Shown here: piece after piece, positions 16,933 through 42,087 of the stretch
Layout of the letters: every line of letters begins with the position of its first letter
How positions within the stretch are numbered: the first letter of the stretch is position 1
From: Sinimarinibacterium flocculans
Lineage (GTDB): Bacteria; Pseudomonadota; Gammaproteobacteria; Nevskiales; Nevskiaceae
NCBI RefSeq assembly: GCF_003201205.1
Contig: NZ_QICN01000001.1
Span: 186,001 to 250,000, forward strand
Direction: 5' to 3'
DNA: 64,000 nt
The notes under the pieces: generated by a model
Seen by the model: only the letters and a program-made list of their open reading frames with translations
The model's database searches: none
Told to the model about the DNA's origin: nothing
Program-made: the position numbers and the translations under genes

Positions 16933-16976
16933 TGTCGCATTTCCGTCATCAGATCGTCATTTGCCGCCTCTAGTCT
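16933..16976 (+). promoter_or_regulatory. PhoB box and -10 of the TonB-dependent receptor gene
   Basis: Three direct repeats at exact 11-bp spacing: TGTCGC (16933), CGTCAT (16944), CGTCAT (16955). They are followed after exactly 10 bp by the -10-like TAGTCT (16971-16976). This is the arrangement of PhoB-activated promoters, where the box replaces the -35. The gene-free stretch 16864-17223 holds this promoter and a leader of about 240 nt in which I see no further clear element. Confidence 0.75.
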
Positions 16977-17223
16977 GCCGCCGCGTGAAGGTTAGGGGCA
17001 GACCGCACCGCATGGCATCGCCTGCGGGTGAACCGGGGTGAACCGAGATGGGTACGGCAGTCGAGCGGGTGCGGTTTCTGGAATCCCGCAGCGACGGTGC
17101 TCCCCTTGAATGCCACCGGGCACCTCCCGCGTCCTTCGCCCCGCGGCGGTCCGACCGACCGCCATCGCATCCGGCATACGCGCCCGAGGCCGTGCCGAAC
17201 CGAATGTCCGATTGAAAACACTG

Positions 17224-20200
17224 ATGAGACGGCACCCTCGCTTTTCCCTGTTCCCCGCCGCCCTCGCCCTGGCGGCGTTGCTGCTCAGCCACGGCGCTGC
17301 GGCAGCCGAGCTCTACCTGAGCGTGTTCCTGCAGGCGAATCCCCTCAAGGGGGTCGATGTCGAACTCAACGATCGCTTCGTCGGTGTCACGGGTGCCCGT
17401 GGTGACGTGACCACGGAGCTCTATGCAGGCCGTCACGTCGTGCGCCTGGTCAAGAACGGCGCGCCGCTGACGGAGTATGCGTTCGCCGTGAAGGAGGGCG
17501 AGAACGCCGAGATCAGCATCGGCTTCACCGACTTCCAGAAGAAGCCCGATGTCGCGATCGACATCTATCAGCCGGGCACGGCGTCGGGCGCCACCGGCGA
17601 GCTGAGCGGCGTCATCGCCGATGCGGACGGCGCAGCGGTCGTCGGCGCCCAGGTTGCGGTAGAGCCGGGTGTTGCGCAGGCGACGACCGACGAGCGCGGT
17701 GTCTACTCGCTGACGGTGCCGCGTGGCGAGTACCGCCTCACCGTGACGCATCCCGACTACGAGGCCGTCAAGAGCGGCGCGATCCGCGTGATCGCGAATG
17801 TCGGTGTCGCGGCGAACATCAGTCTCACACCGAAGCAGGCCGAACCGGCCGAAGCCCCGGTTGCGGCGGTGCCCGCGCCCGGCGCGACGGTGGCGGCACC
17901 ACCCAGCGGTGTCGAGGAAGTCGTGGCACTGGGCTCGTACAAGCCGCTCGAAAGCACCGTCGAGACGGAGCGGTTCTCGCTCGCGGTGACCGACGCGATC
18001 AGTATCGACGAACTGCTGCGCATCGGCGACAGCGACGTCGCCGCGACGCTGCGCCGCATCGTCGGTGTCTCCGTGACCGGCGGTCGCTACGCGGTGGTGC
18101 GCGGTCTCGACGGCCGCTACATCTCGGCCACGCTCAACGGCAACCTGATGCCGAGTACCGATCCGTTCCGTCGCGACGTGCAGCTCGACCTGTTCCCCAA
18201 CGACATCCTCGGCGGCATCGAGATCCAGAAGACCTTCACCGCCGACATGCCCGGCGACACCACCGGCGGCATCATCAAGATCAAGACGCGCGATCTGCCG
18301 GAGAACTACGTCAACAGCCTCTCGGCGTCGCTCGGCTATGTCACCGGCACGACCGGCGAGGATCTGCTGACCTACGAAGGCAGTGGCTCCGACGGCCTGG
18401 GCATGGACGACGGCCTGCGCGATCTGCCGGGAGCGATCTACGCGGCGACCAACGGCGGCAGGGACTTCAGCGTCTGCCAGTTCGAGGGTCAGCAGAACTG
18501 CGTCGAACGCGCGCGCGCCGCGGAACTGGCCACGCTGCTGCCGAACATCTACAACGTCCGCCGCGAGAGCGCTGCCCCGGACTTCGGTCTCGGCTACACC
18601 CTGGGCAACGTCTTCGACCGTGATATCGGCACGGTCGGGATGTACGGCAGCGTGTCGTACGACACCGGTGCCAAGTCACGACAGGACGCGGTCATCAACA
18701 TCCCCAACGTGCGCAACTCCAGCTACGCGCGCGACGAGTTCGAGACGACGCTCAACGGCTACTTCGTCGCCGGCATCGAGAGCGACGACGGCTGGGAAGT
18801 GCTGAGCAAGACCATGGTCCTGCGCTCGACCGAGGACACGACCGAGGTCGAGGTCGGCGTCGATCCCGCGAACGACCAGCTGTTCGAGGAATACCTGATC
18901 GAGTGGGTCGAGCGTCAGTTCCTGGCCCAGCAGTTCGAAGGTGAGTGGTTCCTGTTCGACGATCACGAGCTGAACTGGCGCGCCGGCCTGTCGCAGACCC
19001 GCCGCGACGCCCCGGACCGCAGGTCCTACGAGTACCAGGCATCGATCGTCGATGGCCAGGCCGGAACCCCCGCGGTCATCGTCAACACTGTCGAGCGCAG
19101 CTATGCCGAGCTCACGGAGGATGGCGTCGATCTGGGTGTGGACTACCTGATCCCGTTCGAGCTCAACGACAAGATCTTCCTCGACGTACAGGTCGGCGCC
19201 CTGTTCAACCGGCGCGAGCGTGAGTCCGAACTGGTGCGCATCGGTTTTCGCGGTGGCAACAACGTCGACCGCACGCAGGACCTCGAGTCGCTGCTGACGC
19301 CGGAGAACTTCGCCAACGGCACGTTCACGCTGGCGGCGACGTCGACGGACACCGATGCGTATGACGCCGAGCAGGAGAGCGTCGCCTACTATCTGAGCAC
19401 GACGACGACGATCGCCGACGTACTGACGATCATCGCCGGCATCCGGCAGGACGAGTTCACGCAGAAGATCGAGTTTCCGAACGCCTCGGTGGACCCGGTC
19501 GAGATCGACTCGAACGAGGCGCTGCCCTCCCTCGGGCTGATCTACCAGCTCGGTGCGTCCTGGCAGCTGCGCGCCGGTTACGGCAAGACCGTGTCCCGCC
19601 CGAACATCACCGAGAATGCGCCGACCCGGTTCTTCGACGAGCGCGGCCGGCAGTTCATCGGCTGCACCGCGGCACAGGCACCGGCGTGTACGCCCTCGCT
19701 GATCGACAACTACGATCTGCGTGCCGAGTACTACTTCAACGACGATCGCGACAGCGTCTCGCTGGCCCTGTTCTGGAAGGACATCAGCGATCCGATCGAA
19801 CGCGCCGTGCCGTTCATCTCCGGGCAGGCGCAGGACTCGCTGACCTTCCGCAACCAGGAATCGGCGATGATCGGCGGCATCGAGATCGACGCGAGCGTGA
19901 CCGCGCTCGACATGGCCAACCATGCGCTGACGATCGCGGCCAACGTCGCCTTCATCGAGTCCGAGATCAACCTCGACGCGCAGGGCCGGCAGCTGGAACT
20001 CGATCCGAATCGCGAACTCCAGGGCCAGTCGCCGTTTCTTGCCAACCTGCAGTTCGCCTACGACCACTTCCCGAGTGCGCAGAAGGTCACGCTGCTGGCG
20101 AACTACTTCGACGATCGCATCGACATCGTCGCCGGCCGCCCGGATACGCCGATCTACGAGGTCGGTCGCGCGACGGTGAACCTGAACTACGAGAAGGAGT

Positions 20201-20337
20201 TCGCGAACAGTTCGAAGATCAGCTTCAAGGCCAAGAACCTGCTCGATGAAGAGATCCAGTACGAGCAGAACGGCCGGATCATCGAAAGCTATTCCGAAGG
20301 CACGGAGTTCTCGGTGGGCTACACCTACAAGTTCTGA
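17224..20337 (+). CDS. TonB-dependent outer-membrane receptor with two N-terminal carboxypeptidase-regulatory-like domains
   Basis: A 1037-residue outer-membrane beta-barrel importer. After a signal peptide (1-26) come two Ig-like domains. The first begins AELYLSVFLQANPLKGVDVEL. The second (about 120-205) has the CarboxypepD_reg pattern GVIADADGAAVVGAQV...TDERGVYSLTVPRGEYRL. A proline/alanine linker leads to a TonB-box-like VEEVVALGSY, then the plug (SIDELLRIGDSDVAATLRRI, VVRGLDGRYISATLNG) and a long barrel ending in the terminal aromatic YTYKF. The plug is of the type found in large substrate (oligomer or organic-complex) receptors rather than siderophore receptors, but the ligand is unknown. 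The start at 17224 gives the only sensible signal peptide; its ribosome binding site is poor. It is preceded by a PhoB box and followed 140 bp later by the tandem-repeat lipoprotein gene. Confidence 0.9.
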   Translation: MRRHPRFSLFPAALALAALLLSHGAAAAELYLSVFLQANPLKGVDVELNDRFVGVTGARGDVTTELYAGRHVVRLVKNGAPLTEYAFAVKEGENAEISIGFTDFQKKPDVAIDIYQPGTASGATGELSGVIADADGAAVVGAQVAVEPGVAQATTDERGVYSLTVPRGEYRLTVTHPDYEAVKSGAIRVIANVGVAANISLTPKQAEPAEAPVAAVPAPGATVAAPPSGVEEVVALGSYKPLESTVETERFSLAVTDAISIDELLRIGDSDVAATLRRIVGVSVTGGRYAVVRGLDGRYISATLNGNLMPSTDPFRRDVQLDLFPNDILGGIEIQKTFTADMPGDTTGGIIKIKTRDLPENYVNSLSASLGYVTGTTGEDLLTYEGSGSDGLGMDDGLRDLPGAIYAATNGGRDFSVCQFEGQQNCVERARAAELATLLPNIYNVRRESAAPDFGLGYTLGNVFDRDIGTVGMYGSVSYDTGAKSRQDAVINIPNVRNSSYARDEFETTLNGYFVAGIESDDGWEVLSKTMVLRSTEDTTEVEVGVDPANDQLFEEYLIEWVERQFLAQQFEGEWFLFDDHELNWRAGLSQTRRDAPDRRSYEYQASIVDGQAGTPAVIVNTVERSYAELTEDGVDLGVDYLIPFELNDKIFLDVQVGALFNRRERESELVRIGFRGGNNVDRTQDLESLLTPENFANGTFTLAATSTDTDAYDAEQESVAYYLSTTTTIADVLTIIAGIRQDEFTQKIEFPNASVDPVEIDSNEALPSLGLIYQLGASWQLRAGYGKTVSRPNITENAPTRFFDERGRQFIGCTAAQAPACTPSLIDNYDLRAEYYFNDDRDSVSLALFWKDISDPIERAVPFISGQAQDSLTFRNQESAMIGGIEIDASVTALDMANHALTIAANVAFIESEINLDAQGRQLELDPNRELQGQSPFLANLQFAYDHFPSAQKVTLLANYFDDRIDIVAGRPDTPIYEVGRATVNLNYEKEFANSSKISFKAKNLLDEEIQYEQNGRIIESYSEGTEFSVGYTYKF

Positions 20338-20477: not shown

Positions 20478-23219
20478 ATGAAACGAGAGAACCTACTCGG
20501 CTTGATCTGCAGCGCCAGCGTGCTGCTGGCCGCCTGCGGTGGTGGCGGTGGTGGCGGCGGCGGTGACCCGACGCCGACTCCGACGCCGACGGCAACCCCG
20601 CCGCCGACGGAGCCGGACTTCGTCAGCTGTGCCGGCAACACCTGCACGATCAGTGGCGACGTCGACGAGGACTACACGATGGTCGCGTCGCGCAGCTGGA
20701 TCCTCGATGACGTCGTGCGCGTCGGTGCTGGCAACGTCAGTGCGACCACGCAGGCTGCCGTTGATGCGATCAAGGCCGCTGGCGTGACGCTGACGATCGA
20801 ACCCGGCACGAACATCAAGGCGACCGACGATGCGAGCCTGCTGGTGACGCGTGGTTCGAAGATCAACGCAAACGGCACGGCGGCTGCACCGATCACCTTC
20901 AGCAGCCTCGACGACGGTTTCGATGGCGAGGGCGAGTGGGGTGGCGTCGTGATCCAGGGCTTTGCCCCGCAGTTCGGTCAGGGCAACTCCGGCGCCTGCT
21001 CAGAAGCCACCGGCTTCTGCAACGTGCAGGGCGAAGGCGGCGATTTCATCGGCGTGTACGGTGGTACCGATGCGGCAGACGACAGCGGTGTCTTTCGCTA
21101 CGTGCGCATCGCCGAGGGCGGCCTGATTGCCGGTCCGAACAACGAGGTCAACGGTCTGACGCTGCAGGGCGTCGGTCACGGCACGACGATCGAGTACGTG
21201 CAGGTGCACGCCAACCTCGACGACGGTGTCGAGTGGTTCGGCGGTACGGTCAACGCCCGCTACCTCGTGCTGACCAGCAACGACGATGACGACCTCGACT
21301 ATGACGAGGGCTATCAGGGCAACGTGCAGTATGTGATTGTCCGCAAGAACCCGACCAAGCTCGGACCTACGGGCTCGAACGATCCGCGCATGATCGAGGC
21401 CAACAGCAGCGATGCGGACTACACCCCGCAGACCAATGCGGTGCTCGCCAACATCACGGCGATCGGATCGCAGGTCTCCAAGGGCGAGCCGGGCTTCCGC
21501 CTGCGCGGTGCCGTACAGTCGACGATCTACAACACGGCGCTGGTCGACGTGACGCAGCAGTGCGTGCGTATCGACAATGCCGACACCGACGGTGACGGCA
21601 CGACCGACGTCGACTCGGTGATCGGCCTGGTCAACGTGATCGGCGACTGCGACGCCGGCTTCTACCGCGGCAGCAACGTCGCCAACCCCGAGACCAACGT
21701 GCAGGACACGACGGTAACGCTCGACGACGCCTACGCGGTGACGCAGGCCGCGGCGCAGCTCGGTGCTCCGGCGAATATCGTTCCGGTCGCCAATGGTTCG
21801 TCGTTCACCTTCGACCAGACCGACTACATCGGTGCGGTCGAGCCGGGTACGGCAGCCAACGAGGCCTGGTGGGCAGGCTGGACGCTGCCCGGCACGCTGA
21901 CGGAGGCGGATGAGGAAGAACCCGCGGCGGCCGACTTCGTGTCGTGCACGGCGACGGTCTGCACGATGACCGGCGACGTGACCGAGGACTACGTGATGGT
22001 GGCCTCTCGTCAGTGGATCATCGACGACGTCGTGCGCGTGGGTGCCGGCAACGTCAGCGCGACGACTCAGGCCCAGGTCGACGCGATCAAGGCTGCCGGC
22101 GTGACGCTGACGATCCGTCCGGGTGTCGACATCCGCGCCACCAACGACGCGAGCCTGCTCGTGACGCGTGGTTCCAAGCTGATCGCCGCCGGCACTGCCG
22201 CTGCACCGATCACCTTCAGCAGCCTCGACGACGGTTTCGACGGCGAGGGCGAGTGGGGCGGCGTCGTGATCCAGGGCTTCGCGCCGCAGTTCGGCCAGGG
22301 CAACACGGGCGCCTGCTCGTTGGCCACCGGTTTCTGCAACGTGCAGGGCGAGGGCGGCGACTTCATCGGCGTCTACGGCGGCGACGATCCGGCGGACAAC
22401 AGCGGCATCATCCGCTACGTGCGCATCGCCGAAGGCGGTCTGATCGCAGGGCCGAACAACGAGGTCAACGGTCTGACGCTGCAGGGCGTCGGTCACGGCA
22501 CCCAGCTCGAGTTCGTGCAGGTGCACGCCAACCTCGATGACGGTGTCGAGTGGTTCGGCGGCACGGTCAATGCCCGCTATCTGGTGCTGACCAGCAACGA
22601 CGACGACGACCTCGACTACGACGAGGGTTACCAGGGCAACGTGCAGTACGTGATCATCCGCAAGAACCCGACGAAGGCCGATCCTTCCGGTTCGAACGAT
22701 CCGCGCATGATCGAGGCCAACAGCAGCGATGCGGACTACACGCCGCAGACCAATGCGGCGCTGGCCAACATCACGGCGATCGGTGCGGAAGTGTCGGACG
22801 GCGAGCCGGGCTTCCGTCTGCGTGGTGCGGTGACGACGACGATCTACAACACCGCGCTGGCCAACGTCGCGCAGCAGTGCGTGCGTATCGACAATGCCGA
22901 TACCGATGGCGACGGCACGGCCGACGTCAACTCGGTCATCGGCATGGTCAACGTGATCGGCGACTGCGATGCGGGCTTCTACCGCAACAACATCGTCGCG
23001 GATCCGGACACCAACACCGCCACTGGCACCGTCACGATTGACGCCGCCTATGCGGTGACGGAAGCCGCGGCGCAGCTGGGCGCGGCGCCGCAGATGTCGC
23101 CGGTCAATAACGGTTCGTCGTTCACCTTCGACCCGACCGACTACATCGGCGCTGTCGAGCCAGGCACGGCTGCCGGCCAGGCCTGGTGGGCCGGATGGAC
23201 GCTTCCGGGCACGCTGTAA
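20478..23219 (+). CDS. Large tandem-repeat lipoprotein, probable parallel beta-helix, partner of the TonB-dependent receptor
   Basis: A 913-residue exported lipoprotein of no named family that I recognise. The signal peptide ends in the lipobox LLAAC (Cys20), followed by a poly-glycine and Thr/Pro linker (21-46). The rest is two tandem copies of a ~439-residue unit (nucleotides 20616-21932 and 21933-23219). Each copy carries FVSC, WGGVVIQGFAPQ, YVRIAEGG, NEVNGLTLQGVGHGT, DDGVEWFGGTVNARYLVLTS, an aspartate-rich DDDDLDYDEGYQGN, and WWAGWTLPGTL at its end. The short hydrophobic-strand/glycine pattern suggests a right-handed beta-helix, and the Asp clusters suggest calcium sites. A GTGAGG ribosome binding site precedes the ATG. 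Directly downstream of the receptor and without a promoter that I can see, it is probably co-transcribed and may be a surface substrate-binding protein. Confidence 0.8.
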   Translation: MKRENLLGLICSASVLLAACGGGGGGGGGDPTPTPTPTATPPPTEPDFVSCAGNTCTISGDVDEDYTMVASRSWILDDVVRVGAGNVSATTQAAVDAIKAAGVTLTIEPGTNIKATDDASLLVTRGSKINANGTAAAPITFSSLDDGFDGEGEWGGVVIQGFAPQFGQGNSGACSEATGFCNVQGEGGDFIGVYGGTDAADDSGVFRYVRIAEGGLIAGPNNEVNGLTLQGVGHGTTIEYVQVHANLDDGVEWFGGTVNARYLVLTSNDDDDLDYDEGYQGNVQYVIVRKNPTKLGPTGSNDPRMIEANSSDADYTPQTNAVLANITAIGSQVSKGEPGFRLRGAVQSTIYNTALVDVTQQCVRIDNADTDGDGTTDVDSVIGLVNVIGDCDAGFYRGSNVANPETNVQDTTVTLDDAYAVTQAAAQLGAPANIVPVANGSSFTFDQTDYIGAVEPGTAANEAWWAGWTLPGTLTEADEEEPAAADFVSCTATVCTMTGDVTEDYVMVASRQWIIDDVVRVGAGNVSATTQAQVDAIKAAGVTLTIRPGVDIRATNDASLLVTRGSKLIAAGTAAAPITFSSLDDGFDGEGEWGGVVIQGFAPQFGQGNTGACSLATGFCNVQGEGGDFIGVYGGDDPADNSGIIRYVRIAEGGLIAGPNNEVNGLTLQGVGHGTQLEFVQVHANLDDGVEWFGGTVNARYLVLTSNDDDDLDYDEGYQGNVQYVIIRKNPTKADPSGSNDPRMIEANSSDADYTPQTNAALANITAIGAEVSDGEPGFRLRGAVTTTIYNTALANVAQQCVRIDNADTDGDGTADVNSVIGMVNVIGDCDAGFYRNNIVADPDTNTATGTVTIDAAYAVTEAAAQLGAAPQMSPVNNGSSFTFDPTDYIGAVEPGTAAGQAWWAGWTLPGTL
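20616..23219 (+). repeat. Tandem 1317-bp coding duplication
   Basis: Copy 1 is 20616-21932 and copy 2 is 21933-23219. Long blocks are identical at amino-acid level (for example GQGN, DGFDGEGEWGGVVIQGFAPQ and GNVQYV with flanks), while nucleotides differ mainly at third positions. This indicates an old duplication kept by protein-level selection. Confidence 0.9.
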
Positions 23220-23264: not shown

Positions 23265-23294
23265 GGGCGGCGACCGAAGGGTCGCCGCCCTTTT
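23265..23294 (+). terminator. Rho-independent terminator of receptor/lipoprotein operon
   Basis: A perfect 11-bp stem GGGCGGCGACC (23265-23275) / GGTCGCCGCCC (23280-23290) with a 4-nt loop is followed by TTTTCCTTT. It isolates the receptor pair from the next operon. Confidence 0.88.
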
Positions 23295-23337: not shown

Positions 23338-23381
23338 TGTCATGAAAACGACATCTGATCGTCACAATCTGGCCTTAGCCT
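23338..23381 (+). promoter_or_regulatory. PhoB box and -10 of the DUF3450-ExbBD-TonB operon
   Basis: Three direct repeats at exact 11-bp spacing: TGTCAT (23338), CGACAT (23349), CGTCAC (23360). After exactly 10 bp comes TAGCCT (23376-23381). The -10 and following bases (TAGCCTGCCGC) nearly match the receptor promoter (TAGTCTGCCGC). The gene-free stretch 23220-23526 holds the terminator, this promoter and a leader of about 145 nt. Confidence 0.78.
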
Positions 23382-23526: not shown

Positions 23527-24288
23527 ATGGTCAGCAAGACTCCGATGAGGGCGCTGATGCTGGCGAGCCTCGTGCTCGCGTCGTCCGGTGCCTCCGCGCA
23601 ACTCGACAATGCCATCGCCAAGGAGGCGACGCGCGTCGAGAAGGGGGCCCAGGCCCAGGACAAGGTCGACCAGATCTACGACCAGACACGGGACAGCGTC
23701 ACCGAGTTCAAGAGCGTGACCAAGCAGGCCGACGGCCTGCGCGTCTACCTCCAGCAGCTGCAGAAGCAGTTGCAGAACCAGGCCACCGAGCTGGCCGAGA
23801 TCGAGCGGTCGGTGCAGGACGTGACCGTCATCGAGCGGCAGATCGTGCCGCTGATGCTGCGCATGATTGACGGCCTCGAACAGTTCGTCGCGCTGGACCT
23901 TCCGTTCCTGCTCGAGGAGCGTCGCGAGCGGGTGTCCGGTCTGCGCGGCCTGCTCGAGCGCGCCGACGTGACCGTGGCCGAGAAGTTCCGGAACGTCATG
24001 GCGGCCTACACCACCGAGATCGAGTACGGGCGGACGATCGAGGCCTATCGCGGCACGCTGCCGGGAACCGATCGCGAGGTCGACTTCCTGCGCATCGGGC
24101 GTATCGCGATGTTCTACGAAAGCCTCGACGGCAAGGAGGTCGGTCGCTGGAACGCCGACGGCAAGGCCTTCGAGCAACTGTCCGGCGCCTATCGCGGCCA
24201 GATCGGGCAGGGCATCCGTATCGCCCGCGAACAGGCTGCGCCCGACCTGATCCGCCTCCCGATCCAGACCGCCGGAGCCGCGCAATGA
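23527..24288 (+). CDS. DUF3450 periplasmic coiled-coil protein of a TonB2-type system
   Basis: A 253-residue exported protein with signal peptide (1-24, ending SGASAQ) and a long helical coiled coil (about 30-105, rich in Gln/Glu/Lys: LRVYLQQLQKQLQNQATELA). A conserved helical domain follows (PLMLRMIDGLEQFV, DLPFLLEERRERV, EYGRTIEAYRGTL, VDFLRIGRIAMFY). This matches the DUF3450 family, which is found upstream of ttpC-exbB-exbD-tonB clusters in Vibrio, Shewanella and relatives. Its molecular function is not known; a role in organising the periplasmic part of the energising complex is inferred from position. Its stop overlaps the next ATG (ATGA). Confidence 0.85.
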   Translation: MVSKTPMRALMLASLVLASSGASAQLDNAIAKEATRVEKGAQAQDKVDQIYDQTRDSVTEFKSVTKQADGLRVYLQQLQKQLQNQATELAEIERSVQDVTVIERQIVPLMLRMIDGLEQFVALDLPFLLEERRERVSGLRGLLERADVTVAEKFRNVMAAYTTEIEYGRTIEAYRGTLPGTDREVDFLRIGRIAMFYESLDGKEVGRWNADGKAFEQLSGAYRGQIGQGIRIAREQAAPDLIRLPIQTAGAAQ

Positions 24289-25682
24289 GCCGCGTCATGA
24301 CCCGTTTCAAATCGTTGTTTGCCGCAGCGGCCCTCACCGCGATCGTTGCGGCGCCCGCGACCGCGCAGAACGACGGTGCACGATCGGTCGACGACCTGCT
24401 GCGCCTGATCGAGCAGGGCGTCGCCAAGGATGCCGCCGAGCAGCGCCGGCGCATCCAGGAGTTCGAGGCGGACCGCGCGCAACAGACGCAGCGCCTGAGC
24501 GCCGCGCGTGCGGAACTGCGCGACTTGGAATCCCGCAGTGTCGCTGCCGAGCAGCAGTACCAGACCAACGAAACGAAGATCGCTGAAGAGACCGCGCGGC
24601 TCAATGAAAGACTGGGCGCGCTGCGCGAGCTGTTCGGCGTGCTGCAGCAGACGGCCGGCGACTTTCGCGGCGTGGTGCAGTCCTCGATCGTCAGTGCCCA
24701 GTATCCGGGGCGCGAGGACTTTCTCGGCGAGCTGATCAGGAAGGCCGGATCGGGCTCGCGCCTGCCGTCGATCGAGGAGCTCGAGAAGCTCTGGTTCGAA
24801 ATGCAGCGGCAGGCGGTCGAATCCGGAAAGTCCGTCAAGTTCAGTGCCGAGGTCGTGGACCCCAACGGCGACAAGCGCCAGGCCGAAGTGATCCGCGTCG
24901 GCGAGTTCAACGCGGTGGCCGGTGGCGACTTCCTGTACTTCGACAGCGAGCGCGGCAACCTCGTCGAACTCGCGCGGCAGCCGGCCGGCCGCTACACCGG
25001 CGTGGCCGCGGACTACGCAAGTGCCGCCGAAGGGCAGGTGGAGGACTTCTGGATCGATCCGTCGCGCGGTTCGATTCTCGCGCTGCTGATCCAGTCGCCG
25101 AACCTGATGGAACGCGTCCATCAGGGCGGCATCGTCGGCTACGTCATCATCGCGCTGGGCGTGATCGGCGTGCTGCTGTTCCTGGAGCGCCTGATCTCGC
25201 TGTCGTCGATCGACGGCAAGGTGCGCCGCCAGATGAAGAGCACCGAGCCGCGTGACGACAATCCGCTCGGACGCGTGATGGCGACCTACCAGAAGTATCG
25301 CGGCACCGACCAGGAGACCCTGGAGCTGCGCCTGACCGAGTCGATTGCGCAGGAGACGCCCAGCCTGACGCGCTTCCTGCCGCTGCTGAAGATCATCTCG
25401 GTCGTCGCGCCGCTGCTCGGCCTGCTCGGCACGGTCACCGGCATGATCAATACCTTCCAGGCGATCACGTTGTTCGGTACCGGCGACCCCAAGCTGATGG
25501 CGGGCGGCATCTCGCAGGCGCTGGTCACGACCGTCCTGGGCCTGTGCGTGGCGATCCCGACCGTGTTGCTGCACACGATCGCGCAGGGACGTTCGAAGCG
25601 TATCGCCCAGGTCATCGAGGAGCGCGCCGTGGGCATCATGGCCGAGCACGCGGAGACCGAGGGCCATGTACGCACTGCTTGA
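24285..25682 (+). CDS. TtpC-like MotA/TolQ/ExbB proton-channel family protein
   Basis: A 465-residue inner-membrane protein. A signal peptide (1-27), a periplasmic coiled coil (about 35-115) and a beta-rich periplasmic domain (about 165-250) precede a C-terminal ExbB-like domain. That domain has one membrane segment (GGIVGYVIIALGVIGVLLFL, about 285-305) and the paired TolQ/ExbB helices around LLGLLGTVTGMINTFQ and GGISQALVTTVLGLCVAIPT. This is the layout of Vibrio TtpC, a component needed for TonB2 energy transfer. It is the second gene of the Pho-box operon, overlapping DUF3450 by 4 bp and exbB by 17 bp. Confidence 0.85.
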   Translation: MSRVMTRFKSLFAAAALTAIVAAPATAQNDGARSVDDLLRLIEQGVAKDAAEQRRRIQEFEADRAQQTQRLSAARAELRDLESRSVAAEQQYQTNETKIAEETARLNERLGALRELFGVLQQTAGDFRGVVQSSIVSAQYPGREDFLGELIRKAGSGSRLPSIEELEKLWFEMQRQAVESGKSVKFSAEVVDPNGDKRQAEVIRVGEFNAVAGGDFLYFDSERGNLVELARQPAGRYTGVAADYASAAEGQVEDFWIDPSRGSILALLIQSPNLMERVHQGGIVGYVIIALGVIGVLLFLERLISLSSIDGKVRRQMKSTEPRDDNPLGRVMATYQKYRGTDQETLELRLTESIAQETPSLTRFLPLLKIISVVAPLLGLLGTVTGMINTFQAITLFGTGDPKLMAGGISQALVTTVLGLCVAIPTVLLHTIAQGRSKRIAQVIEERAVGIMAEHAETEGHVRTA

Positions 25683-26193
25683 GGCGTACGAACAGGTCCA
25701 GATCTTCCTCGAACGCGGGGGGCCGATCCTGTTGTGGATCGGTCTGCTGGTGTTCGTCATGTGGACGCTGATCATCGAGCGGCTGATGTACTACCGGATC
25801 GGCTTTCCGCGCCTGGCGCGGCAGATCATGGGGCGCTGGGAGGCGCGCCGCGAGCGCAAGTCCTGGGAAGCGCACCAGATCCGGCAGTCGATGGTCGCCG
25901 ACGCCAAGATCAACCTGCAGTCGCAGTTGTCGCTGATTAAGGCGATGGTCGCGCTGTGCCCACTGCTCGGCCTGCTCGGCACCGTGACCGGCATGATGGA
26001 AGTGTTCGACGTCATGGCGATCGCCGGCACGGGGAGCGCCCGCAACATGGCCTCGGGCATCTCGAAGGCGACGATTCCGACCATGGCCGGCATGGTCGGG
26101 GCGCTCACCGGCGTGTTCTTCACGGCGATTCTCGATCGCCAGGCCAAGATGAAGAAGACGCACCTCGAAGACGAACTCACGTTCGACCACTAA
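25666..26193 (+). CDS. exbB: Biopolymer transport protein ExbB
   Basis: A 175-residue inner-membrane proton-channel subunit. It has an N-terminal membrane segment (GPILLWIGLLVFVMWTLIIE) and the paired helices LCPLLGLLGTVTGMMEVFD and ISKATIPTMAGMVGALTGVFF characteristic of ExbB/TolQ. With ExbD it forms the proton-driven motor for TonB. It starts inside the end of the TtpC-like gene (17 bp overlap), which indicates coupled translation. It is shorter than E. coli ExbB (244 residues), normal for ExbB2-type proteins. Confidence 0.93.
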   Translation: MYALLEAYEQVQIFLERGGPILLWIGLLVFVMWTLIIERLMYYRIGFPRLARQIMGRWEARRERKSWEAHQIRQSMVADAKINLQSQLSLIKAMVALCPLLGLLGTVTGMMEVFDVMAIAGTGSARNMASGISKATIPTMAGMVGALTGVFFTAILDRQAKMKKTHLEDELTFDH

Positions 26194-26217: not shown

Positions 26218-26622
26218 ATGCGACAGATCTTCCCCAAGGCCGAAGAAGAGGAATCCAGCATCGACCTGACGCCGATGCTCGACGTCGTCTTCATCATGCT
26301 GATCTTCTTCATCGTCACCGCGACCTTCGTCAAGGAGTCCGGCATCGAGGTCAATCGCCCCGAAGCCAGCACCGCAACCAAGCAGGAGCGGGCGAACATC
26401 CTGGTCGCCATCGACCGCAACGGCGAGATCTGGATCAATCGCCGCCGGGTCGAGGTCGATGCCCTGCGGCCGAACATCGAGCGCCTGCACGCGGAGAATC
26501 CGCAGGGAACGGTCGTCATCCAGGCCGATCAGGAAGCGCAGACCAAGCAGCTCGTCGCGGTGATGGACGCGGCACGCGAAGCCGGCGTGTACGAGATCTC
26601 GATCGCCGCGGAGTCGCAGTGA
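26218..26622 (+). CDS. exbD: Biopolymer transport protein ExbD
   Basis: A 134-residue protein with a short cytoplasmic N-terminus, a single membrane helix with the essential proton-carrying aspartate (D22 in DLTPMLDVVFIMLIFFIVTA) and a periplasmic domain (about 45-134). ExbD binds peptidoglycan and TonB and couples proton flow to TonB movement. It lies 24 bp downstream of exbB. The sequence fits ExbD2 of TonB2 clusters in length and motif. Confidence 0.94.
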   Translation: MRQIFPKAEEEESSIDLTPMLDVVFIMLIFFIVTATFVKESGIEVNRPEASTATKQERANILVAIDRNGEIWINRRRVEVDALRPNIERLHAENPQGTVVIQADQEAQTKQLVAVMDAAREAGVYEISIAAESQ

Positions 26623-26650: not shown

Positions 26651-27271
26651 GTGACGGCTCTCGTGCAGCGCTTTCCCGTGGCGGCGCCGCTGGCGGCGCT
26701 GGTGACCTTCGCGATCTTCTTCGTGATGACCGTGCTGATCGCCACCGGCAAGTCGGCTTTCACCGAGGAAGTGCAGGGACGCGTCATCGATTTCGTCCGC
26801 GTCAAGCAGGATGAGGACGTCACGCGGAAGGAGCGCAAGCCGGACCGTCCGCCGCCGCCGGACCGCCCGCCGCCGCAGCCGGAAGTGCCGCAGCAGCAGA
26901 TGACCGCGCAGGCGATCAAGCAGGATTTCTCGATCGGCGCCGTCAGCGCCGACGTGGACGTCGACGTCTCCGCCGGCATGGGCGCCGGCGCGTCCGACGG
27001 TGACTATCTGCCGATCGTGAAGGTGGCGCCCGTCTACCCGCAGCGGGCGCTGTCCCGAAAGATCGAAGGCTGGGTGCTGGTCGAGTTCACGGTGACCGAG
27101 ACCGGCGCCGTCGCCGACGCGCGGGCGATCGAGGCCGAGCCACCCGGCATCTTCGAGGATGCGGCGGTCGAGGCCGCACTGAAATTCCGCTACAAGCCGC
27201 GGGTCATCGACGGCAAGCCGGTGGCTGTCAGCGGCGTGCAAAACCTGATCCGCTTCGAGATGGAGAAATGA
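26651..27271 (+). CDS. tonB: TonB energy-transducing protein
   Basis: A 206-residue TonB2-type protein starting at GTG (26651). A membrane anchor (about 12-35, FAIFFVMTVLIATG) lacks the SHLS-type sequence of E. coli TonB. A proline-rich periplasmic spacer follows (RPPPPDRPPPQPEVPQQQ), then the globular C-terminal domain with the YP motif (VAPVYPQRALSRKIEGWVLV) and RFEMEK at the end. It would contact the TonB box of outer-membrane receptors such as the one at 17224. The operon context and shared PhoB-type promoter tie it to that receptor. It overlaps the TPR gene by 4 bp. Confidence 0.92.
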   Translation: MTALVQRFPVAAPLAALVTFAIFFVMTVLIATGKSAFTEEVQGRVIDFVRVKQDEDVTRKERKPDRPPPPDRPPPQPEVPQQQMTAQAIKQDFSIGAVSADVDVDVSAGMGAGASDGDYLPIVKVAPVYPQRALSRKIEGWVLVEFTVTETGAVADARAIEAEPPGIFEDAAVEAALKFRYKPRVIDGKPVAVSGVQNLIRFEMEK

Positions 27272-28582: not shown

Positions 28583-28816
28583 AGCGATCGCGAACGCCCG
28601 GCCATGGATGGCCGGGCCGGGGGGCACTAAGCGGCGATCCGTCGCGCCATGGATGGCGAGCCTGCTGCGTCCCGAAGGAGCCTGCCGCGAACGCCCGGCC
28701 ATGACTGGCCGGGCGAGGCGCTCATCGGCACGGGGTACCCGCTAGGGACTGAGGGACTGAGGGACGGCCGGCCCGACGCATTCACCGTGGTACAGGCACG
28801 CCCGACGCCCGCCTGC

Positions 28817-29422: not shown

Positions 29423-29506
29423 GCGATGACTCGTGGGGGCGGGGGGGCTGGATGCGATATCGTAGCGGCCCTTTGATGTCGCGCGCCGAGGAGTTTTCCG
29501 CCGGTC

Positions 29507-31539: not shown

Positions 31540-31572
31540 CGTCACAAATCGGTCATCTATTGTTCATATGCT
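31540..31572 (+). promoter_or_regulatory. PhoB box and -10 of phoB (autoregulation)
   Basis: CGTCAC (31540) and GGTCAT (31551) are 11 bp apart. After exactly 10 bp comes TATGCT (31567-31572). A third weaker repeat GTTCAT (31562) overlaps the -10. This matches positive autoregulation known for phoBR in other bacteria. Confidence 0.8.
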
Positions 31573-31600
31573 TGGCCTGTTTTCTAATGAGATCATGCTG

Positions 31601-32293: not shown

Positions 32294-32300
32294 GCCCGCC

Positions 32301-33713
32301 ATGGCCGGCGCGTCGGACGTGCAGCAGACGAACGACAGCGCCGGCACGGCGTCCGGCGGTGATGCACCGCTGGCGAGCCAGGCGCGCCTGTGGCAGCGCG
32401 AGCTGCTGCGCCTGATCCTGCTGCTCCTGCTCGGCGGCCTGGCCGGTTGGCTGTTCGAGCATCCCGCCGCCGGCGTCGCGATTGCCGCGTTGTTCGTGCT
32501 GTTGCTGCAGGCACGCAACCTGATCCGCCTGCGCCTGTGGCTGCAGATGCCCAAGCGACTCGAACTGCCGGAGCCGGGTGGCTTGTGGGGCGAGGTGTTC
32601 GACGGCCTCATCGAACTGCAGCGCAAGAACCGCAAGAAGAAGAAGAAGCTCGCGGCGATGCTGTCCGAGTTCCAGGCCTCGACCGCAGCGCTGCCGGACG
32701 GCGCCGTGGTGCTGGGCGAGCGCGGCGAGATCGCGTGGTTCAACAGCGCCGCCCAGCGCCTGCTCGGCCTGCGCGTACCGCAGGACATCGGCATCCGCGT
32801 GCCGAACCTGATTCGCCACCCGGACTTCGCGCAGTACTTCGACGGCGGCGAGTTCGACCGCGAGGCCGAGCTGCCGTCGCCGATCAATCCGGCGAAGACG
32901 CTGTCGCTGCGGGTCGTGCCCTACGGCCGCAACCAGCGTCTGCTGATCGTCCGCGACGTGTCGGAGCGGCTGATGCTCGACGCCGCCCGGCGCGACTTCG
33001 TCGCCAACGCCTCCCACGAGTTGCGTACGCCGTTGACCGTGCTGCGCGGCTATCTGGACCTGATGGAGATGGAGTCCCAGGGCAACGGCGTGCTGGCGCC
33101 GTGGCACGCGCCGGTGGTCGAGATGCGCAGCCAGGCGATGCGCATGGAAAACCTGATCAACGACATGCTCAAGCTCGCGCGGCTGGAGTCTGGGCGCGCG
33201 CAGATGCGCGAGGAACGCCTCGATGCCCCGGCGATGATCCAGCGGGCGGTCGAGGATGCGCGGGCACTGTCGCGCGGCCAGCACCGTTTCGAGCTGGCGG
33301 TCGAGCCCGGACTGGGGCTGTCGGGCGGGGAAACCCAGCTGCAGAGCATCTTCGTCAACCTGATCAGCAACGCGGTGCGCTATACCCCGCCCGGCGGCGC
33401 CATCCGCGTGCGCTGGCAGCAGACCGCGGAGGGGGTGCGTTTCTCGGTGGCGGATACCGGCATCGGCATCGCCCAGAAGGACATTCCGCGCCTGACCGAG
33501 CGCTTCTACCGGGTGGACGTCGGGCGCTCGCAGGCCAGCGGCGGCACCGGGCTGGGCCTGTCCATCGTCAAGCACGCCCTGGAAGCCTTCGACGGCCGCC
33601 TCGAGATCGAGAGCGAGATCGGGGTCGGCAGCACCTTCACCGGCGTGTTTCCGCCGCACCGCCTGCTGCGACTGCCCGCGCCGGAACCGGCCGAAACCCC
33701 GCTACGACGCTGA
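32301..33713 (+). CDS. phoR: Phosphate regulon sensor histidine kinase PhoR
   Basis: A 470-residue membrane kinase. Two hydrophobic segments lie near the N-terminus (about 36-51 and 56-70), with a lysine-rich linker (RKNRKKKKKLA). A PAS domain follows (about 120-220), then HisKA with the phosphorylated H239 in VANASHELRTPLTV, and HATPase motifs (NLISNAVRYTPPGG, VADTGIGIAQKDIPRLTERF, GGTGLGLSIVKHAL). PhoR has no large periplasmic domain; it reads phosphate status through the PstSCAB-PhoU complex encoded just downstream. The start at 32301 follows the phoB stop directly; upstream in-frame ATGs lie inside phoB. Confidence 0.95.
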   Translation: MAGASDVQQTNDSAGTASGGDAPLASQARLWQRELLRLILLLLLGGLAGWLFEHPAAGVAIAALFVLLLQARNLIRLRLWLQMPKRLELPEPGGLWGEVFDGLIELQRKNRKKKKKLAAMLSEFQASTAALPDGAVVLGERGEIAWFNSAAQRLLGLRVPQDIGIRVPNLIRHPDFAQYFDGGEFDREAELPSPINPAKTLSLRVVPYGRNQRLLIVRDVSERLMLDAARRDFVANASHELRTPLTVLRGYLDLMEMESQGNGVLAPWHAPVVEMRSQAMRMENLINDMLKLARLESGRAQMREERLDAPAMIQRAVEDARALSRGQHRFELAVEPGLGLSGGETQLQSIFVNLISNAVRYTPPGGAIRVRWQQTAEGVRFSVADTGIGIAQKDIPRLTERFYRVDVGRSQASGGTGLGLSIVKHALEAFDGRLEIESEIGVGSTFTGVFPPHRLLRLPAPEPAETPLRR

Positions 33714-33733: not shown

Positions 33734-33766
33734 TGTCATCAAACCGTCACGAAAGTTTCATACTGT
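33734..33766 (+). promoter_or_regulatory. PhoB box and -10 of pstS
   Basis: TGTCAT (33734) and CGTCAC (33745) are 11 bp apart. After exactly 10 bp comes TACTGT (33761-33766). A third repeat TTTCAT (33756) overlaps the -10. The repeat and -10 positions match the phoB promoter base for base in spacing. Confidence 0.85.
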
Positions 33767-33821: not shown

Positions 33822-34904
33822 ATGAAACGATTGATCGCTGCCCCCGTCGTCGCGGCGCTGATGCTGGCGCTGGCCGCTTGCGGCAAGAAGGACGAAGCGC
33901 CGACCGCGCCGGCCAGCACGACGAGCGCCGCGGCACCTGCCGCCGAGACCGCACCGGTGGCGAGTGCGCCGGCCGAGAAGACGGCGGACGAGGGTTCGAC
34001 GACGGTCGACCCGGACCTGCCGGGCTATGAGCCCGTCTCCGGCGTCTCCGGGAACTTCTCCAGCGTGGGCTCGGATACGCTGAACAACCTGATGACGCTG
34101 TGGGCCGAGGCGTACCAGAAGTTCTATCCGAACGTGAACATCCAGATCCAGGGCGCGGGCTCGTCGACGGCGCCGCCGGCGCTGACCGAGGGCACCGCCA
34201 ACTTCGGCCCGATGTCGCGGCCGATGAAGGATCAGGAGATCCAGGCGTTCGAACAGAAGTACGGCTACAAGCCGACCGCCGTCGGCGTCGCCATCGACGC
34301 CCTCGCGGTCTACGTCAACAAGGACAACCCGATCGAGGGCCTGTCGATTCCGCAGGTCGATGCCATCTTCTCGGCCACGCGCAAGTGCGGCGGCGCGCAG
34401 GATCTGACCCGCTGGGGCGACGTCGGCCTGACCGGCGACTGGGCGTCCAAGCCGTTCCAGATGTATGGCCGCAACTCGGTGTCCGGCACCTACGGCTACT
34501 TCAAGGAAAACGCGCTGTGCAAGGGTGATTTCAAGTCGACGGTCAACGAGCAGCCGGGTTCGGCCTCGGTGGTGCAGTCGATTTCGACCAGCCTCGCCGC
34601 GATCGGCTACTCCGGGCTCGGCTACAAGACCTCGGGCGTTCGCGCACTGCCGCTGTCGCGCGCCGACGGCGAGCCGTATGTCGAGGCCAGCGACGAGAAC
34701 GCGGTCACCGGTGCCTATCCGCTGTCGCGCGTGCTGTTCGTCTACGTGAACAAGGCCCCGAACAAGCCGCTGTCGCCGATGGAAACCGAGTTCTTCCGCA
34801 TGGTGCTGTCGCGCCAGGGCCAGGAAGTGGTGCAGAAGGACGGCTACACGCCGCTGCCGGAGAAGCTCGCGGCGCGTTTCCGCTCCGAGCTGGGCATCGA
34901 ATAA
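33822..34904 (+). CDS. pstS: Phosphate ABC transporter substrate-binding lipoprotein PstS
   Basis: A 360-residue periplasmic phosphate-binding protein. The start at 33822 has GAGGA upstream and gives a lipoprotein signal ([20 protein letters not shown], Cys20). A Thr/Ala/Pro-rich spacer follows, then the binding domain with [42 protein letters not shown] and [14 protein letters not shown], which supply the phosphate-binding serines and threonines. The domain is of the PstS type found in Pseudomonas-like bacteria. It is the first gene of the PhoB-driven pst transcript; the porin gene follows after 108 bp containing two hairpins. Confidence 0.95.
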
Positions 34905-34918: not shown

Positions 34919-34997
34919 GGCGGTGCGGTGGCCCGCAGGGTGCCGCACCGCCATCACACCAAACCGATACGATAGGCCCGCACCGTTCTGGTGCGGG
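34919..34997 (+). other. Two hairpins between pstS and the phosphate porin gene
   Basis: A 10-bp perfect stem GGCGGTGCGG (34919-34928) / CCGCACCGCC (34943-34952), then an 8-bp stem CCCGCACC (34977-34984) / GGTGCGGG (34990-34997). Neither has a T tract and no PhoB box is present, so these are more likely mRNA-stabilising or attenuating structures inside one transcript than a true terminator. Confidence 0.5.
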
Positions 34998-35012
34998 TGC
35001 AGGGGAGTGCGC

Positions 35013-36188
35013 ATGAACAACAAACTTCATCGGATGAGCATCGTCGTCGCAGGTGCGGCACTGATCGGTCTCGTCGCGGTGCCGGCGCAGGCCGAAACCG
35101 TCGAGACCCGCGGTGGCATCCGCATCACCTCGGACGACGGCCGGTTCAAGGCCCAGCTCGGCGGCCGCATCCACCTGGACAGCAATGTCTGGGTCGACGA
35201 CGACGAGTTCGGCGATCTGGAAACCGGTGTCTTCTTCCGCCGCGGTCGCATCACGCTCGAAGGCGAGGCCTACGGCTGGCGCTACAAGTTCGAGAACGAC
35301 TTTGCCGGACAGAGCGGCGACAACGGTTCGGGCATTCGCGAGATGTGGATCGGCACGACCCTGGCCGGCGTCAAGCTGCGTCTCGGTCAGGCCAAGCCCT
35401 ACCGCGGCATCGAGGAGCTGACCAGCTCCAACGACCTGCTGTTCATGGAGCGTCCTTTCGCCAGCGGCTCGGGCATCTACCGCCAGTACCAGACCGGCGT
35501 GTTCGCCGACGCCGCCGGCAGCAACTACGGCTGGGGCGCGGCGGTTTACAACCTGCGCAACGGTGCTGACAGCGACGACGACACCGACGGCGTCGGCGCG
35601 ACCGTTCGCGGCTACTACCTGCCGATAATGGACGACGACGTACTGCTGCACGTCGGCGGCATCGCCAGCCTCGACAATCCGGCGAACGGCAAGACGGTGG
35701 GCGCCTCGGTGCGCTTCGCCGGCCGTCGCGGTCCGTCCCAGGGGCTCGGCAGCACCACAGAAGATCAGCAGAGCTTCGGCGTCGAACTGGCCGGCCGGGT
35801 CGGCTCGCTGTCGCTGCAGAGCGAGTACCACTTTGTCACACTCGCGCAACCTTCCGGAGACGATACTGACCTTTCGGCCAGCTACGTCCAGGTGTCATGG
35901 CTGCTCAACGGGGAGGTCAAGCCCTACGACGTCGGCAAGGGTGCGTTCAAGTCGCCGAAGCCGGCGGGTGGCCGGGGAGCCTGGGAGCTGAAGCTGCGCT
36001 ACGACCTGATCGACGTCTCCGGCCGCGATCCGGAGATCGACGTGAGCCAGCTCGCCGCCGGTGCGAACTGGTACATCAATCCGAACGTGCGCTTCATGCT
36101 CGAGTACATCCAGGGCGAAAGCGACCTGAGCGATGGCACGGGAGTCGACGGCAGCCTGATCGCCGCCCGCGCGCAGCTCAGTTTCTGA
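35013..36188 (+). CDS. OprP/OprO-type phosphate-selective porin
   Basis: A 391-residue outer-membrane porin. The signal peptide (1-30, ending VPAQAET) is followed by the Porin_O_P pattern: GRFKAQLGGRIHLDSNVW, FFRRGRITLEGEAYGWRYKFENDF, VKLRLGQAKPYRGIEELTSSND, and a C-terminal strand ending AARAQLSF with terminal phenylalanine. Homologues form trimeric anion-selective channels for phosphate or polyphosphate. Start at 35013 follows an AGGGGAG ribosome binding site. Position inside the pst operon supports a phosphate role. A 28-bp perfect palindrome separates it from pstC. Confidence 0.88.
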   Translation: MNNKLHRMSIVVAGAALIGLVAVPAQAETVETRGGIRITSDDGRFKAQLGGRIHLDSNVWVDDDEFGDLETGVFFRRGRITLEGEAYGWRYKFENDFAGQSGDNGSGIREMWIGTTLAGVKLRLGQAKPYRGIEELTSSNDLLFMERPFASGSGIYRQYQTGVFADAAGSNYGWGAAVYNLRNGADSDDDTDGVGATVRGYYLPIMDDDVLLHVGGIASLDNPANGKTVGASVRFAGRRGPSQGLGSTTEDQQSFGVELAGRVGSLSLQSEYHFVTLAQPSGDDTDLSASYVQVSWLLNGEVKPYDVGKGAFKSPKPAGGRGAWELKLRYDLIDVSGRDPEIDVSQLAAGANWYINPNVRFMLEYIQGESDLSDGTGVDGSLIAARAQLSF

Positions 36189-41307: not shown

Positions 41308-42024
41308 ATGAACACACCCGGCTACAAATCCCACATCTCCAGCCAGTTCAACGCCGAGCTGGAAGACGTGCGTCAGCGCGTGCTGGCCATGGGCGGGCTG
41401 GTGGAACAGCAGATCGTCGAGGCGACGCGGGCGCTGATGGATGCCGACGCCGATCTCGGCCAGCAGGTGGCCAAGAACGACTACAAGGTCAACGAGCTGG
41501 AAGTCTTCATCGACGAGGAGTGCGCGCGCATCCTCGCGCGGCGCCAGCCGACCGCCAGCGACCTGCGGCTGGTGTATGCGGTGATCAAGACCATCACCGA
41601 TCTCGAGCGCATCGGCGACGAGGCCGAGAAGATCGCACGCATGGCCGTGGACCTGTCGGCCCAGGACCGGCTCAGCGTCGGCATGCTGGAAGTGCACCAC
41701 CTGTCGCGCCATGTCGTGCAGATGGTGCACGACGCGCTCGACTCCTTCGCGCGCATGGACCCGGAAGCTGCGCTGGCGGCAGCGCGCGAGGACCAGGCGA
41801 TCGACCGGGAGTACGAGTCGCTGATGCGCCAGTGCATCACCTTCATGATGGAGGATCCGCGCACGATCCGGCGGGTGATGGACATCATCTGGAGCGTACG
41901 TGCGCTCGAGCGCATCGGCGACCACGCCAAGAACATCGCCGAGTACGTGATCTACTACGTCAAGGGCAAGGACGTGCGCCACGTCTCCATCGAAGCGATG
42001 GAGCGCGAGGTCAAGGGCGGCTGA
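41308..42024 (+). CDS. phoU: Phosphate signalling protein PhoU
   Basis: A 238-residue helical protein made of two PhoU three-helix repeats, each with the metal-binding E/DxxxD-type pattern (IKTITDLERIGDEAEKIARM and DIIWSVRALERIGDHAKNIAEY). PhoU links PstSCAB to PhoR and keeps the regulon off in high phosphate. The ATG at 41308 follows a GAAGGG ribosome binding site. It ends the pst operon; a 9-bp hairpin (42037-42058) follows and overlaps the next PhoB box. Confidence 0.96.
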   Translation: MNTPGYKSHISSQFNAELEDVRQRVLAMGGLVEQQIVEATRALMDADADLGQQVAKNDYKVNELEVFIDEECARILARRQPTASDLRLVYAVIKTITDLERIGDEAEKIARMAVDLSAQDRLSVGMLEVHHLSRHVVQMVHDALDSFARMDPEAALAAAREDQAIDREYESLMRQCITFMMEDPRTIRRVMDIIWSVRALERIGDHAKNIAEYVIYYVKGKDVRHVSIEAMEREVKGG

Positions 42025-42043
42025 ACGCCTGCGCCGGACGCCG

Positions 42044-42087
42044 CGTCACCGCGGCGTCACGTTGACGTCATCTGTGCTGCCTACATT
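42044..42087 (+). promoter_or_regulatory. PhoB box and -10 of the choice-of-anchor-I lipoprotein gene
   Basis: Three repeats at exact 11-bp spacing: CGTCAC (42044), CGTCAC (42055), CGTCAT (42066). After exactly 10 bp comes TACATT (42082-42087). The first repeats are also part of a perfect hairpin GACGCCGCG / CGCGGCGTC (42037-42045 and 42050-42058) that may end the phoU transcript. Confidence 0.8.

Follow-up and report, generated by a model that had tools for sequence, protein, structure and literature searches.

In both Caulobacter and Flavobacterium, ElpS-type lipoproteins have been reported to rank with the exported or surface proteins that respond most strongly to phosphate starvation; in these bacteria they are encoded together with TonB-dependent receptors (TBDRs). 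Here, we describe such a pair in a 64,000-nucleotide stretch of DNA from the gammaproteobacterium Sinimarinibacterium flocculans (contig NZ_QICN01000001.1, positions 186,001 to 250,000; hereafter the window). The genes for the receptor and for a surface-type beta-helix lipoprotein are followed by an operon for a complete TonB motor, and each of the two units is preceded by a promoter with predicted PhoB-binding repeats (a pho box).

In Caulobacter crescentus, the surface lipoprotein ElpS (cc0170) is made specifically in phosphate starvation, and its gene stands beside the TBDR gene cc0171 and genes of a type II secretion system (T2SS); an elpS homolog of Hyphomonas neptunium is described beside type II secretion genes as well (PMC2996285). 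The window shares with this system a lipoprotein that has a TBDR neighbor, production in phosphate starvation being the known property of ElpS. Unlike ElpS, the window lipoprotein is duplicated, is encoded after the TBDR instead of before it, and is accompanied by a whole TonB motor, with no T2SS genes among the scanned neighbors. Because its relatives in Hyphomonas (L142) and Phenylobacterium (L143) adjoin T2SS genes, gene neighborhood suggests that the window protein and ElpS likely belong to a common family. In Flavobacterium johnsoniae, the PUS-IV locus encodes a TonB-dependent transporter, Fjoh_0545, and the lipoprotein FII, Fjoh_0546 (IPR011050), in a phoBR operon together with OprP; low phosphate strongly induces the transporter and lipoprotein but not OprP (PMC8115612). 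The window likewise has a TBDR gene followed by a lipoprotein gene, as well as genes for PhoBR and an OprP-type porin. PUS-IV differs in that it belongs to the Bacteroidota and that exbB does not appear in the main text of PMC8115612, and Fjoh_0546 is a presumed homolog of the window lipoprotein, by way of ElpS. The receptor-lipoprotein pair itself therefore has precedents in both Caulobacter and Flavobacterium, and PhoB of Caulobacter controls various TonB receptors (PMC11208175).

The motor resembles the TonB2 system of Vibrio (TtpB-TtpC-ExbB-ExbD-TonB-TtpD), which has a putative Fur site and serves siderophore transport (PMC6957404). The same six kinds of gene are present in the window, with DUF3450 first, TPR last, and a TtpC-type protein in addition to a separate ExbB. 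In place of the Fur site, however, the window motor has pho boxes, with no Fur-like site near the operon, which lowers the case for an iron TonB2 system but not that for a TonB2-type motor. A TonB energizer under PhoB control is known from PUMA3 of Pseudomonas aeruginosa (vreAIR, exbB2D2-tonB4), in which the energizer needs both PhoB and the sigma factor VreI (PMC4971064). PUMA3 differs in this requirement for VreI and in that its receptor-like VreA lacks a barrel; the accessible text on it names neither an ElpS-type lipoprotein nor TtpB, TtpC, or TtpD. Clusters in Acidithiobacillus and Leptospirillum also bring receptor, energizer, and phosphate genes together, along with a surface-layer protein, but they have been read as iron uptake through phosphate chelation, and the term pho box does not occur in the main text of PMC2631029. 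Our literature search, which took in neither subscription papers nor preprints and judged most sources by title and opening of the abstract, found no account that connects an ElpS-type pair with a DUF3450-TtpC-ExbB-ExbD-TonB-TPR motor under pho boxes; as far as that search went, the parts are known and their combination and control are new.

Pho-box promoters share one geometry

A preliminary description of this DNA, made from the sequence alone, had claimed five sites at which hexamers of the TGTCAT/CGTCAC type recur with an 11-bp period and are followed, after 10 bp, by a -10 hexamer. The letters and spacings read as claimed at all five (Table 1). When both strands of the window were scanned with the full pattern YGTCAY-N5-YGTCAY-N10-TANNNT at up to one mismatch, five matches were obtained, all at these sites; those at 16944, 33734, and 42055 are exact, and those at 23349 and 31540 have one mismatch. 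Against the five real matches, 100 dinucleotide-preserving shuffles of the window gave a mean of 0.00, which bears out the preliminary description. The two-hexamer unit without the -10 element is less discriminating, with 11 occurrences at up to one mismatch compared with 5.2 expected, a count reached by 3 of the 100 shuffles, so it is the fixed distance to the -10 element that gives the arrangement its specificity. Pfam searches of the window frames also confirmed what the boxes precede: phoB, pstS, and a lipoprotein gene after phoU (a choice-of-anchor I protein) at three sites, and the receptor-lipoprotein pair and the DUF3450-TtpC-ExbB-ExbD-TonB-TPR operon at the other two. Each module promoter has at least two YGTCAY-type repeats at an 11-bp period with the -10 element 10 bp downstream. 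A terminator-like hairpin that separates the second box from the lipoprotein gene makes the DUF3450 operon look like a separate transcription unit, although the scan that detected it finds 5 such sites in the region compared with 7.1 in shuffles.

The boxes mark phosphorus genes across the genome

Across the 4.40-Mb genome (39 contigs), the full pattern occurs exactly three times, always inside the window, and 12 times at up to one mismatch; the same pattern written backwards, our control throughout, gave no match at either setting. Base composition predicts 0.02 exact and 0.95 one-mismatch matches for a genome of this kind, so chance may account for one of the nine one-mismatch sites. The seven boxes outside the window (L251-L257) precede three PhoX genes, two PhoD genes, one phospholipase C gene, and one gene for a family-1 glycosyltransferase; two of the three PhoX assignments are partial domain matches over the cut-off. 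All stand before a correctly oriented called gene except L254, which falls within the first 160 bases of a called frame whose true start probably lies later. Together with phoB and pstS, 8 of the 12 matches found with this consensus pattern precede established phosphorus families, the other four being those of the choice-of-anchor I protein, the glycosyltransferase, and the two units of the import module. A glycosyltransferase under such a box would fit low-phosphate lipid remodeling.

A matrix built from the seven outside boxes alone ranked 16944 first and 23349 fourth across the window. Since the search that yielded these seven used the same pattern, the independent evidence lies in the identity of the genes they precede and not in the matrix. 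Because genome-wide matches are few and the outside sites precede such genes, the two module boxes belong to a very specific set. Only 1 of the 38 TBDR genes over the cut-off in this genome has a box, as does one of the genome's DUF3450 modules, one further copy lying at the start of contig 24 with no visible upstream DNA. PhoB/phosphate control of the module is strongly supported by these comparisons. The proposal that an importer with its own energy transducer belongs to the phosphate-starvation regulon is likewise supported, from sequence and comparison only. Apart from the module, the seven outside boxes provide an initial inventory of this genome's Pho regulon.

The cassette and its boxes recur in relatives

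In 73 genomes of the same order, the full pattern has 98 exact matches compared with one for the backwards control. Matches to the lipoprotein at E ≤ 0.001 occur in 33 of these genomes, several covering merely the signal peptide or a short segment, and 32 of the 370 genomes sampled from the class contain a match to a lipoprotein profile. Nine of the 20 regions fetched around the better matches (L051, L052, L054, L058, L059, L060, L061, L063, and L065) hold the receptor, the lipoprotein, and the six-gene motor in the order of the window, and in all nine a box at up to one mismatch precedes the receptor, DUF3450, or both; L053 and L062 have the pair with no box before it. The boxed TBDR-lipoprotein-DUF3450-TtpC-ExbB-ExbD-TonB-TPR cassette recurs in at least five families. 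Four genomes (L261-L264) have a more distant version in which the motor comes first, followed by a TBDR and lipoprotein with 27-30% and 31-38% identity, respectively; L263 (exact) and L264 (one mismatch) have a box just before DUF3450, and both are additional to the 22 linked modules counted below.

A scan of named species with the lipoprotein profile yielded at least 78 loci (1.39 Mb), and all counts over 78 or 68 that follow are among the loci listed. These include Halieaceae, SAR92/Porticoccaceae, Cellvibrionaceae, Teredinibacter, Thalassolituus and relatives, and Hydrocarboniphaga, as well as Oceanococcus, Pseudoalteromonas, Pseudidiomarina, Luteimonas, Hyphomonas, Henriciella, and others. 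Scanned with the full pattern, they give 17 exact matches and 59 at up to one mismatch, compared with 0 and 4 for the control. A receptor accompanies the lipoprotein in 71 of the 78 loci, and in five of the other seven the lipoprotein gene lies at the very start of the available DNA. In the 700 bp before the pair, 23 of 68 loci have an exact two-hexamer box (no -10 element required) and 46 have one at up to one mismatch, a few of these lying more than 600 bp away; the control gives 0 and 1. Near the pair, 15 of 78 loci have pstB/phoU genes, and 3 of 78 have a phoB of at least 50% identity. Clustering of neighbors recovered PstS-type proteins in 14 loci, T2SS secretin genes in nine, and a calcineurin-like phosphoesterase in seven, with no universal partner enzyme among the clustered neighbors. 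The 15 loci with pstB/phoU are those of SAR92/Porticoccaceae (L102-L136), where the pair follows these genes.

The box follows linkage of the motor to the lipoprotein

To compare motors, we collected 122 distinct DUF3450 genes (96 unlinked and two linked fetched paralogs, four from the S. flocculans genome itself, and the rest from cassette loci), which divide into 22 linked to the lipoprotein and 100 unlinked. In 16 of the 22 linked modules, but in none of the 100 unlinked ones, a box is present no more than about 500 bp before DUF3450 (Fisher, 1.8e-15); the control pattern is absent there in all 122. Four of the six other linked modules (L054, L058, L059, and L061) run on from a receptor that carries the box. 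The scan of the unlinked modules covered only the DNA directly before DUF3450, and two of them have less than 200 bp of upstream DNA; the linked rows are not all independent, ten coming from Oceanospirillaceae. Boxed linked modules span three families of the order to which S. flocculans belongs as well as Oceanospirillaceae and Idiomarinaceae.

In a tree of DUF3450, the 20 rows then labeled as linked fall inside one larger clade of 32 rows, with two changes of label. On recheck, two rows labeled "other" in the tree, L161 and L168, turned out to be linked as well, to a receptor and lipoprotein that are distant; as they lie outside this clade and have no box, linkage either arose more than once or was lost. 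The clade rows L206 (G006) and L210 (G005) belong to DUF3450-TonB modules (loci L249 and L250) beside another TBDR, again with no box. In G005, the module follows this TBDR and is accompanied by PGA_cap and HupE/UreJ proteins; it is possibly a related importer for something else. Within the motor of the window, the N-terminal part of the TtpC-type protein weakly matches DUF3450 (E 1e-4, below the cut-off), a match that exceeds the cut-off in some relatives and suggests that TtpB and this part of TtpC are homologous.

The receptor and the lipoprotein

The receptor consists of an N-terminal beta domain, CarboxypepD_reg, an EEVV-type TonB box, the plug, and the barrel, and was modeled with a predicted local distance difference test (pLDDT) score of 83.6. 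The EE of the TonB box is invariant in 45 alignment rows. Of the two possible starts, ATG 17224 is the more likely because the signal peptide begins there. Conserved positions are rich in arginine (25 of 182, compared with 5.7% overall), as would suit an anionic ligand, but TBDRs are generally arginine-rich at conserved places and we did not use this enrichment as evidence.

The lipoprotein has a lipobox signal and an adjacent TBDR, as ElpS does, and is an internal tandem duplication whose units are 85% identical; some relatives (e.g., L058, L059, and L060) match one unit only and others carry two. A single unit was modeled with a pLDDT of 93.9; in a fold search against solved structures, right-handed beta-helices, AlgG and AlgE4 among them, came closest, at low TM-scores (about 0.3 to the query). 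We found no match to the lipoprotein in Pfam, NCBIfam, or PHROGs families; with no Pfam family and a beta-helix model, it does not present as a SusD-type lid. Sequence searches of solved structures returned only matches that we rejected as spurious (a tumor necrosis factor-ligand fusion, major histocompatibility complex proteins, and antibody chains). The IPR011050 entry of the F. johnsoniae lipoprotein is presumably the pectin-lyase-like fold.

A candidate phosphorus importer and its alternatives

Taken together, these observations lead us to propose, with a probability of roughly 0.72, that the receptor, the lipoprotein, and the motor operon form one phosphate-starvation import machine, controlled by PhoB and directed at phosphorus compounds, with a private TonB2-type motor. 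In low phosphate, PhoB is predicted to bind the direct repeats at 16933-16960 and 23338-23365, and, as at phoB and pstS, transcription would start from the -10 elements that follow after 10 bp, so that two adjacent units, receptor plus surface lipoprotein and private motor, would be activated. As ElpS, the F. johnsoniae proteins, and the fold suggest, the surface lipoprotein may capture or trim a phosphorus-containing ligand; it would then hand this ligand to the TBDR for import into the periplasm, in keeping with the known role of these families. The shared boxes and the linkage point to the private motor, not the other TonB systems of the genome, as the probable source of power. Phosphate for PstSCAB would then be set free by the PhoX and PhoD phosphatases, whose genes have the same boxes. 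Inorganic phosphate more likely enters through the OprP-type porin, and because a gene for such a porin is already present for phosphate itself, the ligand of the importer is probably organic or polymeric phosphorus.

The box appears to be specific to phosphorus genes in this genome and conserved before orthologs, but with exceptions, and these and several other observations weigh against our proposal. No two-hexamer box at up to one mismatch precedes the pair in 22 of 68 loci, among them 9 of the 12 loci in which the lipoprotein comes first; and 2 of the 22 linked DUF3450 modules (rows L161 and L168), in the motor-first loci L261 and L262 with a receptor and lipoprotein of 27-33% identity, have no box at up to one mismatch anywhere in 16-18 kb. 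The box before DUF3450 in the window is a one-mismatch match, of which about one is expected by chance per genome. A TonB module lies beside the pair in only 13 of 78 loci; since most loci carry the pair with no adjacent motor in the available DNA, a private motor is not essential to it. The module proteins have no demonstrated phosphate-specific feature, and in Caulobacter the neighboring TBDR cc0171 is reported to be constitutive and re-folded ElpS to have no phosphatase activity (PMC2996285).

If the boxes were chance repeats or sites of another OmpR-family regulator, the link to phosphate would fall away. OmpR-family proteins bind similar direct repeats, and the two-hexamer units alone are not rare in the window. 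With the -10 spacing included, however, the shuffles, the backwards pattern, and the genome scan led us to reject chance repeats; the identity of the boxed phosphorus genes and the conservation of the arrangement in other families make either version of this explanation extremely improbable. Hardly more credible is a TBDR that acts as a sensor, signaling phosphate status across the envelope instead of importing. PUMA3 offers a parallel, coupling a PhoB-controlled receptor-like protein to a sigma factor and the exbB2D2-tonB4 operon (PMC4971064), but Pfam detected no STN signaling domain in the window receptor and no sigma or anti-sigma family in the 25 window frames scanned, and deletion of cc0171 did not abolish ElpS production in Caulobacter (PMC2996285). 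A PhoB-controlled module that imports iron, for example, as ferric phosphate or a siderophore, would presuppose a coupling of iron and phosphate supply. Such phosphate-mediated iron uptake has been proposed for Acidithiobacillus and Leptospirillum, whose TBDR-ExbBD-TonB clusters occur with PhoB or PhoD (Osorio et al. 2008, PMC2631029), TonB2 motors with this gene order take part in the iron uptake of Vibrio (PMC6957404), and the closest solved folds to the window receptor are mostly iron receptors, although this ranking does not discriminate ligands. We nevertheless regard iron as distinctly unlikely. Three matches to a Fur-like pattern (2-3 mismatches; 0.12 expected) lie in the window, at 13783, 39506, and 63811, none near either module promoter, and we rejected Fur control on this basis; the other boxes of the genome precede phosphatases and the like, with no iron genes among them. 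Moreover, iron depletion does not induce ElpS (PMC2996285), and low-phosphate loci of unknown function in F. johnsoniae are tightly repressed under nitrogen and iron limitation (PMC8115612). A link to the orphan TonB3 system of Vibrio, which also starts with an outer-membrane receptor, was considered and dropped; human serum and glycerol minimal medium are each given as activating conditions for that system (PMC6957404), and another study saw no change of it in serum (PMC4260858).

A different reading of the lipoprotein itself makes it a carbohydrate-active beta-helix enzyme and the cargo a glycan or phospho-glycan piece, with the link to phosphorus arising from phosphorylated polysaccharides or from carbon scavenging in starvation. 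The best fold matches are alginate epimerases (AlgG and AlgE4) and other carbohydrate-active beta-helices, an acidic cluster is strongly conserved in alignments of lipoprotein relatives, and Lidbury et al. suggested cell-wall-bound phosphorus for the FI/FII lipoproteins (PMC8115612). These fold matches are weak, however, and would fit any right-handed beta-helix, and none of the nine recurring neighbor families scanned is glycan-degrading, two of them having no Pfam match; we therefore consider this reading unlikely. Set against these alternatives, a phosphorus importer is what we favor, and the module is probably a little-known phosphorus-scavenging route of which similar arrangements recur in related bacteria. 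More tentatively, and short of an even chance, ElpS-family beta-helix lipoproteins may be the ligand-capture partners in a new class of phosphorus importer with three parts (beta-helix lipoprotein, TBDR, and private TtpB/C/D-TonB motor), comparable to SusCD but with a different lid, in which Gammaproteobacteria would have tied the motor to PhoB either through the receptor's own operon or through a separate boxed unit.

That pho boxes and gene order connect the pair to a dedicated TonB motor is an argument for an energized importer. If so, phosphate-starved cells would take up intact organic or polymeric phosphorus by energized import, beyond the use of secreted phosphatases alone, and TonB-type energizers, mostly discussed for iron, would prove assignable to phosphorus. 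The system is of interest because the task of ElpS-type lipoproteins would become directly testable by genetics. Phosphorus supply can be limiting for marine groups such as SAR92 and Halieaceae, and the pair is found in both among the lipoprotein-profile loci listed.

Other features of the window

Table 1. Promoters, genes, and other features of the window discussed in the text
Feature	Coordinates	Strand	Evidence and remarks
Pho-box promoter before TBDR	16933..16976	+	Three 11-bp repeats, TGTCGC-CGTCAT-CGTCAT at 16933/16944/16955; 10 bp; TAGTCT at 16971
TBDR	17110..20337 (likely start ATG 17224)	+	Pfam, alignment, model, fold search
Surface-type lipoprotein	20478..23219	+	Lipobox LAAC; two tandem right-handed beta-helix units
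Terminator-like hairpin	23265..23290	+	11 pairs, 10 G-C, then TTTTCCTTTG; consensus scan only
Pho-box promoter before energizer operon	23338..23381	+	Three repeats, TGTCAT-CGACAT-CGTCAC at 23338/23349/23360; 10 bp; TAGCCT at 23376
DUF3450 protein (TtpB-type)	23527..24288	+	Pfam
TtpC-type protein	24285..25682	+	Pfam; long N-terminal region and MotA/TolQ/ExbB domain
ExbB	25666..26193	+	Pfam
ExbD	26218..26622	+	Pfam
TonB	26651..27271	+	Pfam
TPR protein (TtpD-type)	27268..28545	+	Pfam
Pho box before phoB	31540..31572	+	Pattern scan; CGTCAC-GGTCAT at 31540/31551; 10 bp; TATGCT at 31567
PhoB response regulator	31595..32293	+	Pfam, start check
PhoR sensor kinase	32259..33713	+	Pfam
Pho box before pstS	33734..33766	+	Pattern scan; TGTCAT-CGTCAC at 33734/33745; 10 bp; TACTGT at 33761
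PstS-type binding protein	33822..34904	+	Pfam, start check
Phosphate-selective porin (Porin_O_P, OprP-type)	34923..36188	+	Pfam; between pstS and first permease gene (pstC)
Pho box before choice-of-anchor I lipoprotein	42044..42087	+	Pattern scan; CGTCAC-CGTCAC-CGTCAT at 42044/42055/42066; 10 bp; TACATT at 42082
Choice-of-anchor I lipoprotein	42126..43793	+	Short collagen-like Gly-X-Y stretch after lipobox; pho box upstream

The phosphate genes of the window continue after the porin with two ATP-binding cassette permease genes (pstC and pstA by place), phoU, and the choice-of-anchor I lipoprotein gene. Between the motor and phoB, a plus-strand open reading frame at 28649-29476 (275 aa) is probably spurious because a minus-strand frame at 28817-29842 has a glutathione S-transferase domain. 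The Fur-box-like sequence at 63811-63825 (two mismatches) lies far from the module. The choice-of-anchor I lipoprotein is a probable further phosphorus-starvation protein.

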